A stretch of DNA of 64,000 bases, taken from contig NZ_PSZM01000046.1 of assembly GCF_002964975.1 (NCBI RefSeq), positions 1-64,000 of the forward strand, written 5' to 3'. Position 1 is the stretch's first letter; each line of letters opens with the position of its first letter. The notes below the pieces were generated by a model. That model did not search any database, had not been told where the DNA came from, and saw only the letters and a program-made list of their open reading frames with translations. The stretch comes from Apibacter adventoris. Its GTDB lineage: Bacteria; Bacteroidota; Bacteroidia; Flavobacteriales; Weeksellaceae. This document shows, one piece after another, positions 13,663-51,930 of the stretch. The position numbers were made by a program, and so were the translations under genes.

Positions 13663-13854
13663 CCTACATTGGTTCTAACTCAATTTAGTAAACTCAACAG
13701 ATATTAAACTGACCGAGTGATTTGTTTTTTTAATGGCGGGCTGCTTCCTTTTTAGGAATTTGATTTATTTCAAACAGCAGATTACAGAGAAAAAACATAG
13801 CTTAAATCCTGATTAATGGAGTTTACTCAAATCAGTTATTAGAATTAGTGTAGG
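13663..13854 (+). ncRNA. ssrS: 6S RNA (6S-Flavo type)
   Basis: A 192-nt region whose ends pair over a long interrupted stem. CCTACATTGGTTCTAA (from 13663) pairs with TTAGAATTAGTGTAGG (ending 13854) allowing G-U pairs, and AGTAAACTC (13687-13695) pairs perfectly with GAGTTTACT (13819-13827). These flank a large central bubble and an inner hairpin region (CTGCT 13741-13745 with AGCAG 13776-13780; TTTGA/TCAAA inside it). This long-stem, central-bubble, apical-hairpin shape is that of 6S RNA, which mimics an open promoter and sequesters housekeeping RNA polymerase. A T7 tract follows at once, giving termination. The position between zapA and rny supports the call. Confidence 0.82.
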
Positions 13855-41945: not shown

Positions 41946-42360
41946 TTACATTAATATTCCTTTATTTCCTTTATATAAGCTATATTTCCCGGATCCTAAG
42001 AAAAATATGGATAAAGAAGCAAGAAGGTAGAATATATTGAGTTCTCCTGCTAATCCTCCATTTTCGGAAATGTTAAATATATTCATTTCATGAACTAAAT
42101 AAATTGTCATAATCATGGTGAAGGCAACTAATAAGGAAGATATACGAGTAAATATTCCCAATATAATAAAAATGGGAGCTATAATTTCTCCTACTTGGAA
42201 CTCCGAGCCATAAGATGGAAGGAAGTCCTTTTTTTTCTAACATAATTTTAATAAAATCATGCCCATGAATTAGTTTATAAATTCCGTGAAAAATCATTAA
42301 TCCTCCTACGGAAATTCTTATAAGTAATTTTCCAAAATCCTGATTTATTCCTTTTGTCAT
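41946..42360 (-). pseudogene. DoxX-family membrane protein, frameshifted
   Basis: Two overlapping frames together encode one DoxX protein. The first (from ATG 42360) gives KLLIRISVGGLMIFHGIYK and then MLEKKGLPSI. The expected continuation YGSEFQVGEIIAPIFIILG, then IFTRISSLLVAF, is in another frame that runs to 41946. The join needs one extra base removed, or two missing bases restored, near 42203-42210, just downstream of an A8 run. DoxX proteins are small four-helix membrane proteins of quinone or redox type. It may be a real pseudogene or a sequencing indel. Confidence 0.75.
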
Positions 42361-43701: not shown

Positions 43702-46700
43702 TTAAAAAGGTTTAATGTCACAACTGATAGATTCTAGTACCTGAATAACAGCAGCTGTAGTATCTAATGAAGTGAAACAAGCCACACTATTTTCCACCGC
43801 ATTTCTTCGGATTAAGAATCCGTCTTCCTGAGCAGTTCCATCATTGGAAAGTGTATTAATTACAAATTGAGCTTTTCCTTGTTGCATAATTTTTACAATA
43901 TTATTTTCTTCACTTTCCAATTTATTTATTTCAACTACAGGAATATTATAATTACGAAAATATTTAGCAGTTCCTTGCGTTGCCATAATGGTATATCCTA
44001 TATTATAAAATCTTTTAGCCAAAGGAAGAGCTTCTGCCTTATCTTTATCTGCTACTGTAAATATGGCATTCCCTAATATAGGGATATTGATATGGCTGGC
44101 TCGCAATGCTTTGTATAGGGCTCTTTCATAAGTAATATCTCTTCCAATTACTTCTCCGGTAGATTTCATTTCAGGACCTAAAGTGATATCAACTGCACGT
44201 AATTTAGCAAAAGAAAATACAGGGGCTTTGACATAAATATTATTGGTTTCCGGATAACAATCCATAGCTAGTCCTTGATCTTTCAAAGATTTTCCTAAAA
44301 CTGCTTGAGTTGCTACTTTTGCTAATGGAATTCCTGTTACTTTACTCATGAAAGGAATCGTTCGACTAGAGCGCGGGTTTACTTCCAGAACATAAATTTT
44401 TCCTTTCATTAAAACAAATTGAATATTCATTAATCCCACAATTTTAAAACCTTTGGCAAGCGCCTGAGTTTGTCTTATAATTTCTTTTTTTTCATCTTTA
44501 GATAAAGTTTGTGTAGGATATACGGCAATTGAGTCGCCTGAATGTACACCGGCTTTTTCAATATGTTCCATAATGCCCGGAATAAAAACATCTAAACCAT
44601 CACATACAGCATCTACTTCTATTTCTTTACCTACTAAATATTTATCTATTAATATGGGTTGTTTTTCATGTACATTGATTGCTTCCTTCATGTATCTTTC
44701 CAATTCGGAATTTTCATATACAATTTGCATAGCTCTTCCACCTAAGACATAGGATGGACGTATTACAACCGGATAACCTATTGTATTTGCAACTTTTAAA
44801 GCTTCTTCTAAATTAAAAACAGTATCTCCTTTAGGCCGGGCAATATTTAATTCATTTAATTGTTCTTCAAATTTTTTCCTATCTTCAGCTCTGTCAATAT
44901 CTTCTACTGTAGTTCCCAGAATTTTCGCTCCGGCATCTACGGCTGCTTGTGCTAGATTAATCGCAGTTTGTCCCCCAAATTGAACAAAAACTCCATCAGG
45001 TTTTTCTAAATCTATTATAGAAGTAATAGATTCTCTGGTTAGAGGTTCAAAATAAAGTTTATCTGAAATACTGAAATCTGTAGATACTGTTTCAGGATTA
45101 CTATTAATAATTATAGCTTCATATCCAGCTTCCTTAAGAGATAAAACACTATGAACGGTAGCATAATCAAATTCTACTCCTTGTCCTATCCGTATCGGAC
45201 CGGAACCTAAAACAATTACTTTTTTCCGGTTTGTACGTATGGATTCATTTTCTGATCCATATGTACTGTAAAAGTAAGGGGTTTCAGAAATAAATTCAGC
45301 TGCACAGGTATCAACCATTTTATATACAGGGACTATATGCTTTTCTTTTCTTATTTCATATACTTCTTTCTCTTTTATGTTCCATAATTGAGCAATTTCC
45401 CAATCTGAAAAGCCATACTTTTTAGCCTTAGCCAGTATTTCTGTATTTTGAGGATTATTTTTTAATTCTTTTTCTAGATCTATAATATGTTGAAGTTTGG
45501 CAAGGAAGAAGATATCAATTTTTGTAACTTCATATATTTTTTGAATACTAATTCCATTTCTCAGCGCTTCAGCTATTAAGAACAAACGTTCATCATCTGC
45601 TTTTTTCAATCTTTCATCAAGTGTAACAATATTAAAAGGTTCCATATCTTTTTTGTGCAGATGTAAACAACCAATTTCTAATGACTGTACAGCTTTTAAT
45701 AAAGATTCTTCCAAGGTAGTACCGATAGCCATAACCTCACCTGTGGCTTTCATTTGAGTACCTAAATGTCTGTTTGCACTTTGAAATTTATCAAATGGCC
45801 ATCTGGGAATTTTGGCCACAACATAATCCAATGAAGGTTCAAAACAAGCATAAGTAGTGTTGGTTACCGGATTTTTCATTTCATCTAATGTAAGGCCTAC
45901 TGCAATTTTAGCAGCTAGTTTTGCAATTGGGTATCCGGTGGCTTTAGAGGCTAATGCGGAGGATCGGCTAACCCTTGGATTCACTTCAATTACAATGTAT
46001 TCTCGGCTAAAAGGATCTAAAGCGAATTGAACATTGCACCCTCCTTCTATTTTTAAAGCTCGTATTATTTTTAACGCTGAATTTCTTAATAACTGGTATT
46101 CTTGGTCTGCTAAAGTTTGGCTGGGAGCAAAAACGATGGAATCTCCGGTATGGATGCCGACAGGATCAAAGTTTTCCATATTACATACCACAATTGCATT
46201 ATCATTAGCATCGCGCATTACTTCATATTCAATTTCTTTATATCCGGCGATGCTTTTTTCAATCAAACATTGGTGAACCGGGCTGTATTTTAATCCGGAT
46301 TCTGTTATTTCTATTAATTCTGTTTCATTTTCAGCAATTCCTCCTCCTGTTCCACCTAAAGTAAAAGCAGGTCTTACAATAATGGGATAGCCGATCTGAT
46401 TAGCAAAGTCTATGGAAGCTTTTACTTCATTGACAATTACACTTTCGGCAATAGGTTCATTAATTTTTTCCATTAATTGTTTAAATAAGTCCCTGTCCTC
46501 TGCTTGTTCAATGGAAGAGAGTTTGGTCCCTAATATTTCCACATCATATTGATTTAAAGTTCCTGCTTTTGCTAATTCAACCGCAAGATTTAAACCGGTT
46601 TGCCCACCTAAAGAAGGAAGTAATGCATCGGGGCGCTCAAGGGCAATAATCTGTTGAAGGAAATCCAGAGTAAGGGGCTCCATATATACTGTATCTGCAA

Positions 46701-46878
46701 TTTCTCTGTCAGTCATAATAGTAGCCGGATTGGAATTTACCAGGACTACTTTATAACCTTCTTCCTTTAAAGCTAAACAAGCTTGTGTTCCTGCATAGTC
46801 AAATTCAGCAGCTTGACCTATTATTATAGGGCCTGATCCGATTACCAATATTTTATTTATATCTGTGCGTTTTGGCAT
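43702..46878 (-). CDS. carB: Carbamoyl-phosphate synthase, large subunit
   Basis: Makes carbamoyl phosphate from bicarbonate, ammonia (from CarA) and two ATP for pyrimidine and arginine synthesis. Its 1058 residues show the duplicated ATP-grasp architecture: first half with [20 protein letters not shown] and [20 protein letters not shown], second half with [19 protein letters not shown] (VIVLGSGP region) and [11 protein letters not shown]-like [11 protein letters not shown], then the C-terminal allosteric MGS-like domain (about 930-1058). It starts 2 bp after a small lipoprotein gene that separates it from carA. The transcript ends at a strong terminator. Confidence 0.96.
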
Positions 46879-46880
46879 TT

Positions 46881-47438
46881 TTAATTTTTATTTGGAATTG
46901 AAATTTCTAATTTTTTTTCAGGTAAGGTTATTATTTTTTCTTTATTTATTAATTGAGGTTTAATTCTTTTGTTAACCGTATCAAATATTTCAGTTTTTCT
47001 AATATAACTAAATTGTATCTTTTTTACATCTGAAGGTAATTTTTCCTTAGATGTCTGTATAAGTAAAATTTGTTTATACATGCCCATAACATCAGAGCCT
47101 ACTTTACCTACACTTCTGGTAGAGGGAGAAATATTTATATTCATTATATCTCCATGAATTTCTTTATTTATGGTAAGGGCACATAAATCATATTCAGTAG
47201 TTCCTTTGTTTAGCAAAAAGAATAATAAATTGTAGTTAATCAGGTATTTATCTGGTTTTATTTTTTCTATGGAAATAATCAAAGAATCTGAATATTTTTG
47301 ATTTGCATCAGGTTTTAAATAAGAAATAGTCTTTTTTATATTTTTTGTTTTAGGACAGTTCATAAAACCATTTAGACAGTTCATAAACAATAAAGCACTT
47401 ATAACCAAGCAAGTAATAAAAAACAGGATTTTTTTCAT
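46881..47438 (-). CDS. Small putative lipoprotein inserted between carA and carB
   Basis: A 185-residue protein with an N-terminal hydrophobic signal ending in LFMNC (Cys about residue 21), a likely lipobox. The mature part is polar and beta-rich ([34 protein letters not shown]). No family is recognised. It lies 1 bp after the carA stop and 2 bp before carB, so it must be cotranscribed with both. An envelope lipoprotein has no known role in carbamoyl phosphate synthesis; this looks like a lineage-specific insertion in the operon. Confidence 0.65.
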
Positions 47439-47439
47439 T

Positions 47440-48513
47440 TTAGTTATTCTTAAACTCTTCGATCATAGACATGAATCTGTTAAACAAGTATTCATTATCA
47501 TGAGGTCCCGGACTGGATTCCGGGTGATATTGCACGGTAAAAGCCCAGTTCTCTTTATCTTGTAGTCCTTCAATAGTTCCGTCATTCAAAGCCCGATGCG
47601 TTACTTCAAGTGAGGTGTTTTTCAAAGAATCTTCATCTACTACATATCCATGGTTTTGAGAGGTTATATGAACTCGATTCGTAGCTAGTTCTTTTACCGG
47701 ATGGTTAGCCCCTCTATGCCCGAATAACATTTTGTAAGTTTTAGCTCCATGAGCAAGTGCATATAGTTGATGTCCAAGACATATTCCAAACATAGGGACT
47801 TTTCCACTTAGTTCTTTTATTGTATTAATAGAATCTAATAATTCTTCCGGGTTTCCCGGTCCATTAGATAACATGATTCCATCGGGATTCAGTTCTAATA
47901 TAGATTGAGCATCTGTATTATAAGGAACTACCACAATATCACAATGTCGTCGATATAGTTCTTTCAAAATACTCTTTTTCATGCCATAATCTATTAAAAC
48001 AACCCTGTATCCTTCAGCAGGAGCACTATAGGGTCTTGGGGTAGATACTTCGGGTACATGATGTTCCAGCGTAGTATTTTGTAATTTTTTTACTACTTCT
48101 TCAGTACATTCATTATCATTACAAAACTTTCCTTTCATACTTCCTTTAGATCTTATGGTTTTTACTAAGGCACGAGTATCTATTCCGCATAATCCAGGGA
48201 TATTTTGTTTTTTTAAGAAAGCATCAATGTTCATCTGGCTTTGCCAGTGAGATTCTGTTTGTGCATATTCATGCACAACAATTCCACCAACAAAAGGGTT
48301 CAGCGATTCAAAATCACTCGGATTAATTCCGTAATTACCTATTAAAGGATAGGTGAAAACAATAATTTGTTTGTGAAATGATGGGTCGGACATGGTTTCC
48401 TGATAGCCGGTCATTCCTGTAGTGAAAACAACTTCTCCAACAGTAAACTGGGCGCTACCAAAACCATTGCCGCTAAATTCCATTCCATTTTCTAATACTA
48501 ATTTTCGTTTCAA
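47440..48513 (-). CDS. carA: Carbamoyl-phosphate synthase, small (glutaminase) subunit
   Basis: A class I glutamine amidotransferase of 357 residues that feeds ammonia to CarB. The N-terminal domain contains TGMTGYQETMSDPSFHKQI. The glutaminase triad is visible: Cys in MFGICLGHQLYALAHG, and His/Glu in VQYHPESSPGPHDN. The start codon is TTG (48513-48511); the only other candidate downstream is codon 11, inside the conserved N-terminus, and an in-frame stop lies four codons upstream. It is preceded by a long leader with an apparent attenuator. Confidence 0.95.
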   Translation of the reverse strand: MKRKLVLENGMEFSGNGFGSAQFTVGEVVFTTGMTGYQETMSDPSFHKQIIVFTYPLIGNYGINPSDFESLNPFVGGIVVHEYAQTESHWQSQMNIDAFLKKQNIPGLCGIDTRALVKTIRSKGSMKGKFCNDNECTEEVVKKLQNTTLEHHVPEVSTPRPYSAPAEGYRVVLIDYGMKKSILKELYRRHCDIVVVPYNTDAQSILELNPDGIMLSNGPGNPEELLDSINTIKELSGKVPMFGICLGHQLYALAHGAKTYKMLFGHRGANHPVKELATNRVHITSQNHGYVVDEDSLKNTSLEVTHRALNDGTIEGLQDKENWAFTVQYHPESSPGPHDNEYLFNRFMSMIEEFKNN

Positions 48514-48564
48514 GATACTTTTCTATTATTTATTGTTATATTTTTTATTAAAAAAAACTAAAAA

Positions 48565-48591
48565 AAAACACCTTGTTTTCCAAGATGTTTT
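48565..48591 (-). terminator. Intrinsic terminator in the carA leader
   Basis: On the minus strand, AAAACATCTTG (48591-48581) pairs with CAAGGTGTTTT (48575-48565) with one mismatch, loop GAAAA, followed by a U8 run and a second U8 run. It lies 52 bp before the carA start and two bases after the leader ORF stop, so transcripts must pass it to reach carA. Confidence 0.75.
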
Positions 48592-48593
48592 TT

Positions 48594-48725
48594 TTAATTA
48601 TTTATATAAACTCCTCCTAAAGGAGTGTCTCCTTTTCGTTTGTGTATTTCTGAATAAATGTATATTGTTGAAATTATTATTTCTTTTTTAAGAATAGGTG
48701 TTATTATATTACACTGATAAAACAT
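48594..48725 (-). CDS. 43-residue leader ORF upstream of carA
   Basis: An uninterrupted ATG-to-TAA ORF (48725 to 48594) in the carA leader. It begins MFYQCNIITPILKK and ends KRKGDTPLGGVYINN. It is hydrophobic in the first half and basic/glycine-rich in the second. The last third overlaps two mutually exclusive small stems (48629-48634 with 48620-48625, or 48621-48625 with 48614-48618), and the stop lies two bases before the terminator. This is the layout of a translation-coupled attenuator. Its codons are not enriched for arginine, so a simple codon-stalling model is not obvious. A genuine small protein is the alternative. Confidence 0.55.
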   Translation of the reverse strand: MFYQCNIITPILKKEIIISTIYIYSEIHKRKGDTPLGGVYINN

Positions 48726-48777
48726 TTATTTTTTTTAGTTACCGAATCGGTAGTTCTTTGAACTGAATAAAATCTTA

Positions 48778-48808
48778 CAAAGATAATATTTATTGTGTTA
48801 TTTTCCAA
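48778..48808 (-). promoter_or_regulatory. Promoter of the carA leader transcript
   Basis: Minus strand: TTG (48808-48806), 20 bp, TATCTTTG (48785-48778), exact TAnnTTTG. Predicted start near 48771, giving a leader of about 258 nt to the carA TTG. It lies directly beyond the stop of the beta-helix gene. Confidence 0.6.
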
Positions 48809-48813
48809 AAAAA

Positions 48814-50304
48814 TTAAAAATTATAATAATTTGCTCCTGATGCAGGAGCTTTATAAAGTGTTCCATAGGTTCCTCCTATTTTTAGTTGTCCGGTAGAACC
48901 TGTATATAAATTTATGGGTGTTTCTGACATACTAATAGTGCTACTAGATACTCCTTTTTCTCCTATTTTGATTATGGAATTAAAATATAAATTAATATCA
49001 CCTCCCCCAGTCATTACAGTTTTTCCAGAAGAAGAGATTCCGATGAAGCTATTGGAAATTGATTCAATGCATTCAGCTGGAGAGGGAGAATAAATGACAA
49101 TATTATTACCACCGGAAATATTTATTTTAGAATTATCTGCTTTTATAATTTTTCCTCGAAGATCTAATTCCATATTTTTAATATTTACCGATGAATAATT
49201 TATGTCAAAAACACTATTTGGAGGTATATTAGTATTTTTTAGAGTTGAACCCATATCTCCTTTTTCAATATTTAAATAACTATTTCCATTTAAATTAAAA
49301 CTACCTTTATTATTTAAATCAATAGTATTCACATTTATAATATTCATATTGGAATTATTCGATATAGAAAATAGATCGTCTATTAAGAGATCTCCGCCAA
49401 ATCCGTCTATAGCTAAATTACTATTATTAGTTAGATTTGTAGTTGTCTTAAAGTTTGTTTTTATTGTGTATCCCTTTTTTCCACTGATATTAAATGAACT
49501 TTTGTCATTTATATTAAATATTCCATTTATGGTTAGTTCTTTGGCCTGTATGTAGAAACTGGAATAAGAAACATTATGATTATCGTTGGAAAGAATGATA
49601 CGTCCTGTGCCCTGAGTATTAAAAATTTTAATATTAGAGTTGTAAATATTTAATGAGCCAAGTTCTACATCTCCATTAAATAGATGAGTTATGGTAAGAT
49701 TGGAATTAGTTAGATTTAAAGAACCAATAGTGAGTGGGCCGTTAGTTTCAGCGGTAATTTTAAACTTGGGTATTTCACCATTTGCAGAAAGACTTCCTAA
49801 GTCTGTTGATATGCTGCAAGTGAAGGTTAATTCATCTCCTCCGTTTTGGTTGGGTATTTTTTTGGCTTCCCCATTATAGGCCGCCTGTAAAGAAGGGTAA
49901 TCATAAGGTTTTCCTGAATTACTGGAAACTCCTGTTCCTACAGTTACATTTCTTCTTCGTAGTTCTCTCAGGGTAAATGGAGTCCATTTGTTGGCAGTGG
50001 CATCCCAGTAATGGTATCCGATTGCATTAATAGATGACATTCTTGGGTCTGTGGATAAAGTATCAGATAAATTGATTAAGTATATTATTGCTCCATTTTG
50101 GTTGGTTTTATATAGCTGTTTATCTATTGTTTGCTTTTTTAGTTGGGAATAGGTTAAACGTGGGGGAATAAGACCGCTTGGAGCATTATCAATATTTATT
50201 GCTGTTACATCTAAGGTTGCTTGTGGGGATGTGTTATTGACCCCTACCTGAGCATTTATGAATGTAAATAAAAAAGAAATTAATAAACAAATAATTTTTT
50301 TCAT
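48814..50304 (-). CDS. Exported beta-helix surface protein
   Basis: A 496-residue secreted protein. I choose ATG 50304 (MKKIICLLISFLFTF) because it opens a normal signal peptide (cleaved near INAQ); the upstream frame only adds unrelated residues. Mature part: the flavobacterial head VGVNNTSPQATLDV, then IGYHYWDATANKWTPF, then from about residue 150 a long run of 15-20-residue repeats rich in Asn, Ser, Ile and Leu (NSNLTITHLF, NSNIKIF, NNSNMNIINV, NNKGSFNL), the pattern of a right-handed beta-helix. No sorting domain or lipobox. Possible adhesin or surface structure. Confidence 0.7.
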   Translation of the reverse strand: MKKIICLLISFLFTFINAQVGVNNTSPQATLDVTAINIDNAPSGLIPPRLTYSQLKKQTIDKQLYKTNQNGAIIYLINLSDTLSTDPRMSSINAIGYHYWDATANKWTPFTLRELRRRNVTVGTGVSSNSGKPYDYPSLQAAYNGEAKKIPNQNGGDELTFTCSISTDLGSLSANGEIPKFKITAETNGPLTIGSLNLTNSNLTITHLFNGDVELGSLNIYNSNIKIFNTQGTGRIILSNDNHNVSYSSFYIQAKELTINGIFNINDKSSFNISGKKGYTIKTNFKTTTNLTNNSNLAIDGFGGDLLIDDLFSISNNSNMNIINVNTIDLNNKGSFNLNGNSYLNIEKGDMGSTLKNTNIPPNSVFDINYSSVNIKNMELDLRGKIIKADNSKINISGGNNIVIYSPSPAECIESISNSFIGISSSGKTVMTGGGDINLYFNSIIKIGEKGVSSSTISMSETPINLYTGSTGQLKIGGTYGTLYKAPASGANYYNF

Positions 50305-50512
50305 GAGTATAAATTTTATAATTATTTTCGCCAATAGCAAATATATAATTTATTTTTATAATAAACTGGTATAAAAATACTTTTTTTATGTAATAAAAGG
50401 CATAATAACTTGTAAAAAGTATATTTATTATTAAATTGATTAGGTAGAGCAATATGCTTTTAAAAGGAGATATGTAGTTTTTTTGATATTTTAAATAAAA
50501 AAATTTAAAATA

Positions 50513-50544
50513 AAATCCGGGAATTATTGTTAATTTCCGGATTT
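50513..50544 (-). terminator. pyrB terminator
   Basis: AAATCCGG...CCGGATTT stem extended through GAATTA/TAATTT (about 14 bp), loop TTGT, 36 bp beyond the pyrB stop; the minus-strand tail is U-rich. It makes pyrB monocistronic. The remaining AT-rich gap to 50305 holds nothing that I can support. Confidence 0.7.
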
Positions 50545-50579: not shown

Positions 50580-51455
50580 TTAATAATTGAATACATAATT
50601 TAGTACAGCTATCCTGGCAAAAACTCCATTGGTCATTTGCGTGAATATTCTGGATTGCCGAGATTCAATCAGGTCTTCATCTATTTCTATATTTCTATTA
50701 ATAGGTGCAGGATGCATAATTATGGCAGATGGTTTCATTTTATTAGCTCTCTCTTTGGTCAGTCCATATTGTTCCAGGAAATGGCTTTCATCATAGGTTT
50801 GAGTATGCCTTTCATTTTGATTCCTTAATAGCATAACAACATCTGTTTCTTTAATTACCGAATCTAGTGACGTATAGGAGCCCATAGTCATTCTGGAGTC
50901 TCTCCAAAATTCAGGAGTAGCAAAATTAATTTTAGCGCCTAAACGTTGTAAAATTTTGGCATCGGAGTGAGCAACTCGACTATGTACCACATCTCCAACA
51001 ATTGTTATGTTTAAATCTTTAAAAGATCCAAATTCTTCTTGGATGGTAACGAGATCTAGTAAGGATTGAGTAGGGTGGTCTCCGCAACCATCGCCTGCAT
51101 TTATTATTGGTATATGAAGACGGTGTATTAAGTCTTCGTAAAAACGGTCTTGTATATGTCTTATTACAAAACATTCTACACCAATTGAATTTAATGTTTT
51201 TACCGTATCATATAAAGTTTCTCCTTTTTTTATGCTTGAACTTTCTGCATCAAAATAAATAATTTCCATGCCAGTTTTTTTTTCAGCCATTTCAAAACTT
51301 AATTTTGTACGAGTACTGTTTTCAAAAAATAAGTTTGATATATAGTGGTTAGAAAGATTTGGATAGGCTTTTTTCTTTTTATAACAAATAGCATCGTCTA
51401 TAAGTTCTAATACAAGTTCGGGATTTAAATTTTCTAATGAAATAAAGTTATTCAT
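50580..51455 (-). CDS. pyrB: Aspartate carbamoyltransferase, catalytic subunit
   Basis: Condenses carbamoyl phosphate with aspartate in pyrimidine synthesis. The 291 residues are slightly shorter than the E. coli subunit. The carbamoyl phosphate loop is FFENSTRTKLSFEMA, with GDGCGDHPTQSLLDL and IMHPAPINRNIEID as further signatures. It lies in the same orientation as, and upstream of, the carA-carB operon that makes its substrate, with the beta-helix gene between. No pyrI is present, as usual in Bacteroidetes. It has its own terminator. Confidence 0.94.
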   Translation of the reverse strand: MNNFISLENLNPELVLELIDDAICYKKKKAYPNLSNHYISNLFFENSTRTKLSFEMAEKKTGMEIIYFDAESSSIKKGETLYDTVKTLNSIGVECFVIRHIQDRFYEDLIHRLHIPIINAGDGCGDHPTQSLLDLVTIQEEFGSFKDLNITIVGDVVHSRVAHSDAKILQRLGAKINFATPEFWRDSRMTMGSYTSLDSVIKETDVVMLLRNQNERHTQTYDESHFLEQYGLTKERANKMKPSAIIMHPAPINRNIEIDEDLIESRQSRIFTQMTNGVFARIAVLNYVFNY

Positions 51456-51930
51456 GTTTAAAGAAATTTAATTTAATGTTTTTTTTAAGAGTAAAGTTAA
51501 TAGAAAAAAAATATATATCTATGTTTCTGTGGGTAAATGATATAAATGATAATTTTAAAAAAATTAAAATTTTAATATCTCTTCATTTGATAATTTTTAG
51601 GAGATACTACAGATTTAAATGTTAAAATTTCATTTTTAGAGTTGATTTGTTATTATATAACAAGGTAATGTATAGTATAGTTTGATGTGTTGTAATCTAA
51701 ATATTAGAAATAGAGATAAAAATAATAATATAAATATAAATATTTAAGTCTTTAAAATTATTTAATAGATTGTTTTTTTAATAAATAAGATATTTTTTTT
51801 ATTATTTGATAATAATAAATAGATATATTACGTTTACAATTAAAATTAACATTATATTAACAATAAATAAATGTTGTTTTATTTCAAATTTAAAGAAATC
51901 ATAAACTAAAAATAATGAGCTAATATACTG
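51456..51930. other. Intergenic region between pyrB and the LTA-synthase-like gene
   Basis: 475 bp of AT-rich DNA holding the divergent upstream regions of both genes. A perfect palindrome TTGTTAT-TAT-ATAACAA lies at 51647-51663 and may be an operator. No ORF or RNA gene was recognised. Confidence 0.5.

Follow-up and report, generated by a model that had tools for sequence, protein, structure and literature searches.

A putative ribosome-coupled pyrimidine attenuator in the carA leader of Apibacter adventoris and the pyrB leaders of other Weeksellaceae

What is the function of the terminator-bearing leader that precedes carA in the bee-gut bacterium Apibacter adventoris? We analyzed this locus in a window of 64,000 nucleotides of contig NZ_PSZM01000046.1, where all coordinates given below refer to the minus strand unless stated otherwise. 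A preliminary description of this DNA had proposed a translation-coupled attenuator, and its main elements are indeed present. The leader promoter, TTTG-N20-TATCTTTG, has the form of Bacteroidota sigma-A promoters, with a -33 element TTTG (48806..48809, TTG at 48808-48806), a spacer of 20 nt and a -7 box TATCTTTG at 48785-48778. The 5' end of the transcript is expected near 48773 (AUUUUA), which would give a leader of about 260 nt, close to the 258 nt first described. This leader contains an ORF of 43 codons running from ATG 48725 to TAA 48594 (48594..48725), with its stop directly 5' of the terminator A-tract; an ORF of such length reaching the terminator was obtained in 21 of 2000 dinucleotide shuffles of the window leader (about 1%). 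The carA gene (47440..48513; Pfam CPSase_sm_chain and GATase) then begins at a TTG codon, 48513, which is kept across the genus.

Right after the ORF stop lies, as had been described, an intrinsic terminator with two U-runs, here of 9 and 8, behind its stem (48561..48595, core CATCTT-GGAAAAC-AAGGTG; -15.4 kcal/mol, z -7.1). Folding also bore out the claim of two overlapping short stems that cannot form together, namely AAAGGAG-ACA-CTCCTTT (48619..48635; -6.8 kcal/mol, 0/200 shuffles as good) and an alternative stem ACTCCTT-TAG-GAGGAGT (48610..48626; -7.1 kcal/mol, 4/200 shuffles as good), which have bases 48626-48619 in common. Both are clear of the terminator and therefore do not constitute an antiterminator pair. 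Comparison with relatives supports well the arrangement of ORF, stem 48635-48619 and terminator, and hence this part of the proposed attenuator, but neither stem 48626-48610, for which no conservation was found in relatives, nor the mutual exclusion of the two stems. Further upstream, the comparison of hairpin positions in Apibacter singled out a weak hairpin, GAAAT-aata-ATTTC (48670..48683): a hairpin of differing sequence is centred 47-53 nt past the ORF start in 9/9 Apibacter, with a combined shuffle p of about 1e-7 for a position that was picked post hoc and for sequences that are related.

The genomic place of the leader differs between the window and the rest of the genus. In all eight other Apibacter species, carA lies about 35-60 nt 3' of pyrB (of pyrC in one of them), nothing in this gap resembles the window leader, and a leader consisting of promoter, ORF and terminator stands instead before pyrB, at the head of the operon. 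Aligning the regions upstream of carA, as the preliminary description had advised, is thus not the way to reveal conservation. The window pyrB (50580..51455; Pfam OTCace_N/OTCace) possesses neither a leader nor a TAnnTTTG box within 420 nt upstream (region 51456-51930), and alignments searching for a leader remnant 5' of this gene gave short AT-rich matches only. Behind it, a terminator-like hairpin (50513..50544; -12.1 kcal/mol, 0/200 shuffles as good), missed by a simple terminator scan with a loop limit of 8, would set pyrB apart from carA. The space from pyrB to the leader also holds an orphan ORF (48814..50340; no Pfam match) that is absent from the pyrB-carA interval in 8/8 other Apibacter. 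Because the leader of the relatives precedes pyrB, the window pyrB has none and the orphan ORF intervenes, a shift of the leader cassette from the pyrB to the carA position appears to have taken place in this genome. There, the leader would control carA, and perhaps also carB (43702..46878; Pfam CPSase_L domains) and the lipoprotein-like ORF inserted between the two (46881-47438); in the relatives that were read, carB directly follows carA with no intervening ORF.

Some other features of the window were noticed in passing. For the N-terminal part of the orphan ORF, paralogues occur in the same genome, and three other Apibacter genomes contain relatives. At 41946-42360 (minus strand), an ORF of DoxX-like appearance on visual inspection seems to be broken into two overlapping frames, perhaps by a frameshift, and an Rfam Bacteroidales-1 (6S-like) RNA lies at 13668-13851 on the plus strand.

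The window leader aligns with those of the other Apibacter at its two ends, its identity with the leader of one relative (G007) reaching 94.7% over 19 nt at the promoter and 72.5% over 80 nt at the terminator end. TAnCTTTGTnnGATTTT is present at the pyr leader in 7/9 Apibacter, and the terminator core CATCTT...AAGATG-U, as in the window, is found 5' of pyrB in 8/8 other species. Their leaders display a TATCTTTG-type box and a TTG-started ORF of 64-83 codons, followed by the terminator. The leader ORFs of the genus traverse this terminator in two different frames, both open, and it is therefore the openness, not the peptide, that would be maintained in Apibacter.

Is this leader a peculiarity of Apibacter? 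For genome counts, we took the family to be Weeksellaceae, where NCBI places the genus. A covariance model, R1, built from the pyrB leaders of 14 other family genera matched 154 of 198 family genomes, in 25 of 33 genera and mostly once per genome, and, in a sample of 196 genomes from the order, matched none belonging to another family. The model gives no match in Apibacter either, and the link between the window leader and those of the family rests on position, layout and homology to the other Apibacter leaders. Fifty-three R1 loci were fetched, and all 52 strong ones lie upstream of pyrB with an ATG exactly 6 nt past the -7 box, an ORF of usually 22-26 codons and a stop codon mostly at the terminator stem. 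Reading the region upstream of pyrB in 16 further genera revealed one plan throughout: a TATCTTTG-type box, six (once five) nucleotides, ATG, ORF, hairpin, U-rich stretch, stop, terminator and pyrB. The terminator is of the type CGAAG...CTTCG with a U run, and the hairpin, GC-rich in most genera, lies about 25 nt before it; this hairpin was not found in one genome (G023), and in a few genera the ORF either stops short by as much as about 13 nt or enters the terminator. The conserved layout is a predicted hairpin, some 25 U-rich nucleotides, the stop codon and the terminator. The window agrees with it 3' of stem 48635-48619, which takes the position of the GGC...GCC hairpin of the family: about 25 nt lead from the stem to the stop codon, with the terminator next. 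The 5' part of the window leader is longer than in the family, as in other Apibacter. As separate observations, one assembly (G020, C11 and C42) carries pyrB-carA twice with the leader on both copies, and a Flavo-1 RNA lies close to a pyrB leader (L118, 1416-1497).

One could assume that the terminator is constitutive and merely tunes the expression of the operon, the ORF being spurious. Single ORFs in AT-rich family leaders are indeed weak evidence (p of about 0.2 each). However, the frame is open in all 16 genera, and the ORF either enters the terminator or ends no more than about 13 nt from it. Multiplied over the genera, the chances obtained by dinucleotide shuffling come to about 1.5e-11, shared ancestry being ignored; with Fisher's method, the same values yield p = 0.02 on account of the shortness of individual ORFs. 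The hairpin is kept by position as well: present in nearly all of the 16 genera, it gave p of about 2e-6 in a position-restricted shuffle test. We used this test for the central hairpin, since RNAalifold kept the terminator only as consensus fold; no fixed-register covariation is seen for the hairpin because its register shifts between genera. Together with the 6-nt ATG spacing in 52/52 loci and a stop codon that most genera place at the stem, these data render a constitutive terminator unlikely. The stretch behind the hairpin is also distinct in composition, U accounting for 53% of the last 20 nt ahead of the family terminators vs 30% of the preceding leader; ahead of the window terminator, its share is only about one third over 25 nt and 47% over the last 17 nt. 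Isoleucine codons show a clear synonymous preference for U in the related leader loci (ATT 94%, vs 46% in pyrB), which is no longer clear when genera are compared.

If the ORF is translated, does its product matter? Purifying selection on the family leader peptide was considered and rejected, as whole leaders compared within genera show a pN/pS of about 1-1.8, with the reservation that nucleotide constraint may lower pS; within Apibacter, such selection is weak (pN/pS 0.45-0.85). Peptides differ strongly between genera (for example MNNTVFISLELPGDSALYNIYLF), and of the C-terminal residues KGDTPLGG, proposed earlier as a test of conservation, Apibacter leader peptides share no more than a loose P-(L/S)-x-D motif. 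Since ORF openness is kept while the peptides diverge, with such pN/pS values and two frames in Apibacter, the act of translation appears to be favoured over the product.

These results bear on two further hypotheses. The first is amino-acid-specific attenuation, where a ribosome stalling at codons for arginine, or for aspartate as a substrate of PyrB, would let the RNA refold. Arginine synthesis is also fed by carA, and aspartate (9%) and asparagine (11%) are common in many leaders. On the other hand, no run of any control codon was found, in keeping with the absence of an arginine run already noticed in the window leader, arginine amounts to 3% in the leaders, and one genus (G018) lacks aspartate in the leader altogether. 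Neither is there an antiterminator overlapping the terminator, 5' of which both window stems are situated, and a trp-type switch is unlikely because no stem competes with the terminator. In view also of the variable peptides and their pN/pS, we regard this mechanism as improbable. The second hypothesis, to which we give still less credit, is a nascent peptide that senses a nucleotide or metabolite inside the ribosome tunnel and arrests translation. The P-(L/S)-x-D motif would fit, since some other genera also have it (FPLDD), as would the second half of the leader in genus g9, which is conserved with a pN/pS of 0.30; but other genera have wholly different peptides from which the motif is absent.

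Another possibility concerns the start of the transcript in Apibacter. UTP-sensitive reiterative initiation could take place at AUUUUA, the terminator adding a second layer of control. In E. coli, codBA and upp have comparable starts with a U run, and TAnnTTTG-N3-GATTTT is found at the pyr leader of 7/9 Apibacter and is rare elsewhere, with 49 matches in nine genomes vs 27 for the reversed control. The Apibacter start site is, however, only deduced, and the other family genera start near CCAATG, where no U run exists; of all the alternatives, we hold this one to be the least probable. In the family, the leader mRNA would be nearly leaderless, with a 5' UTR of about 2 nt, judging from the ATG spacing and from the position of the -7 box in Flavobacterium psychrophilum, -12 to -5, a species in which leaderless mRNAs make up 5.5% of those mapped (PMC9723704).

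The distribution of PyrR should be considered next to that of the leader. No PyrR reached E 1e-15 in 120 family genomes, whereas the protein was detected in 17 of 23 genomes from other families of the order; some genera of the family (e.g. g10 and g28) showed neither leader nor PyrR. The PyrR-binding element of Rfam was matched neither by the window nor by any of nine leader loci, and Rfam 15 has no match to the leader. We found no description of a family-wide near-leaderless pyr attenuator in a literature search that was thin on subscription papers, and nothing relevant on Chryseobacterium pyrB leaders, Bacteroidetes PyrR regulons or Riemerella start sites. Ribosome-coupled pyr attenuation as such is already known; judging by Rfam 15 and the searched literature, its near-leaderless, family-wide form in Bacteroidota is undescribed. 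The leader attenuator probably replaces the usual PyrR regulator across most genera of the family.

How would such a leader work? When the stop codon was moved to 5 bp before the terminator in E. coli, termination dropped from about 90% to less than 10% (PMC4824070), and coupling on E. coli pyrL suppresses its own terminator (PMC5021804). From these data and the absence of PyrR in the family, we consider it reasonably probable that the leader is a ribosome-coupled pyrimidine transcription attenuator working like E. coli pyrBI/pyrL. UTP is most likely the sensed signal, because the leader belongs to the family's pyrB-carA operon and PyrR is missing. We infer the following course of events from the arrangement of the leader. 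RNA polymerase would transcribe a short translated leader and, when UTP is scarce, be slowed in the hairpin and the U-rich stretch. The first ribosome could then catch up and come to stand at the end of the ORF, on its final codons or its stop codon, beside the terminator, masking the 5' arm of the latter, so that transcription would continue into pyrB-carA (carA in the window). With plentiful UTP, the polymerase would stay ahead of the ribosome, the terminator would fold and transcription would end. On the other hand, a near-leaderless start might load ribosomes so fast that read-through is constant.

A more specific hypothesis, which we put forward as tentative and rather less likely to hold, is that in Weeksellaceae, which lack PyrR, the sensor would be a race between the rate at which ribosomes load onto an essentially leaderless, Shine-Dalgarno-free RNA, its start codon being part of the very first nucleotides transcribed, and the UTP-dependent speed of the polymerase over about 75 nt. 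The same cassette would have moved from pyrB to carA in the Apibacter of the window. Such a ribosome-coupled leader would offer a testable answer to how pyrimidine synthesis is regulated without PyrR in a whole Bacteroidota family, and a very small natural system for studying transcription-translation coupling in a phylum without Shine-Dalgarno sequences.

Parallels can be drawn with three known systems. Like the PyrR-dependent pyr attenuators of Firmicutes (the Rfam PyrR element), the leader has a terminator in the 5' region of a pyr operon; it differs from them in that the family has no PyrR gene and no Rfam PyrR match. With the amino-acid leader-peptide attenuators of Bacteroidota, known from F. 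psychrophilum (PMC9723704), it has in common a short leader ORF, control of transcription elongation and the bacterial class, whereas the family leader lacks a control-codon run and an alternative antiterminator stem and precedes pyrimidine genes. The closest parallel is E. coli pyrBI with its leader pyrL, a likeness of layout for which no sequence kinship is claimed. The pyrBI leader has a normal 5' UTR and pyrL counts 44 codons, against 43 for the window ORF; the family leaders, in contrast, are near-leaderless and mostly 22-26 codons long, with the stop at the stem. Both systems have a leader ORF extending up to a terminator before pyrB, a hairpin followed by a U-rich stretch, and no competing antiterminator. 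The place at the head of the pyrB operon was found in 8/8 other Apibacter and 52/52 strong loci, the window leader standing before carA. The ORF reaches or crosses the terminator, ending directly before it in the window, and the hairpin followed by the U-rich stretch lies inside the ORF in the family, with a weaker U content in the window.
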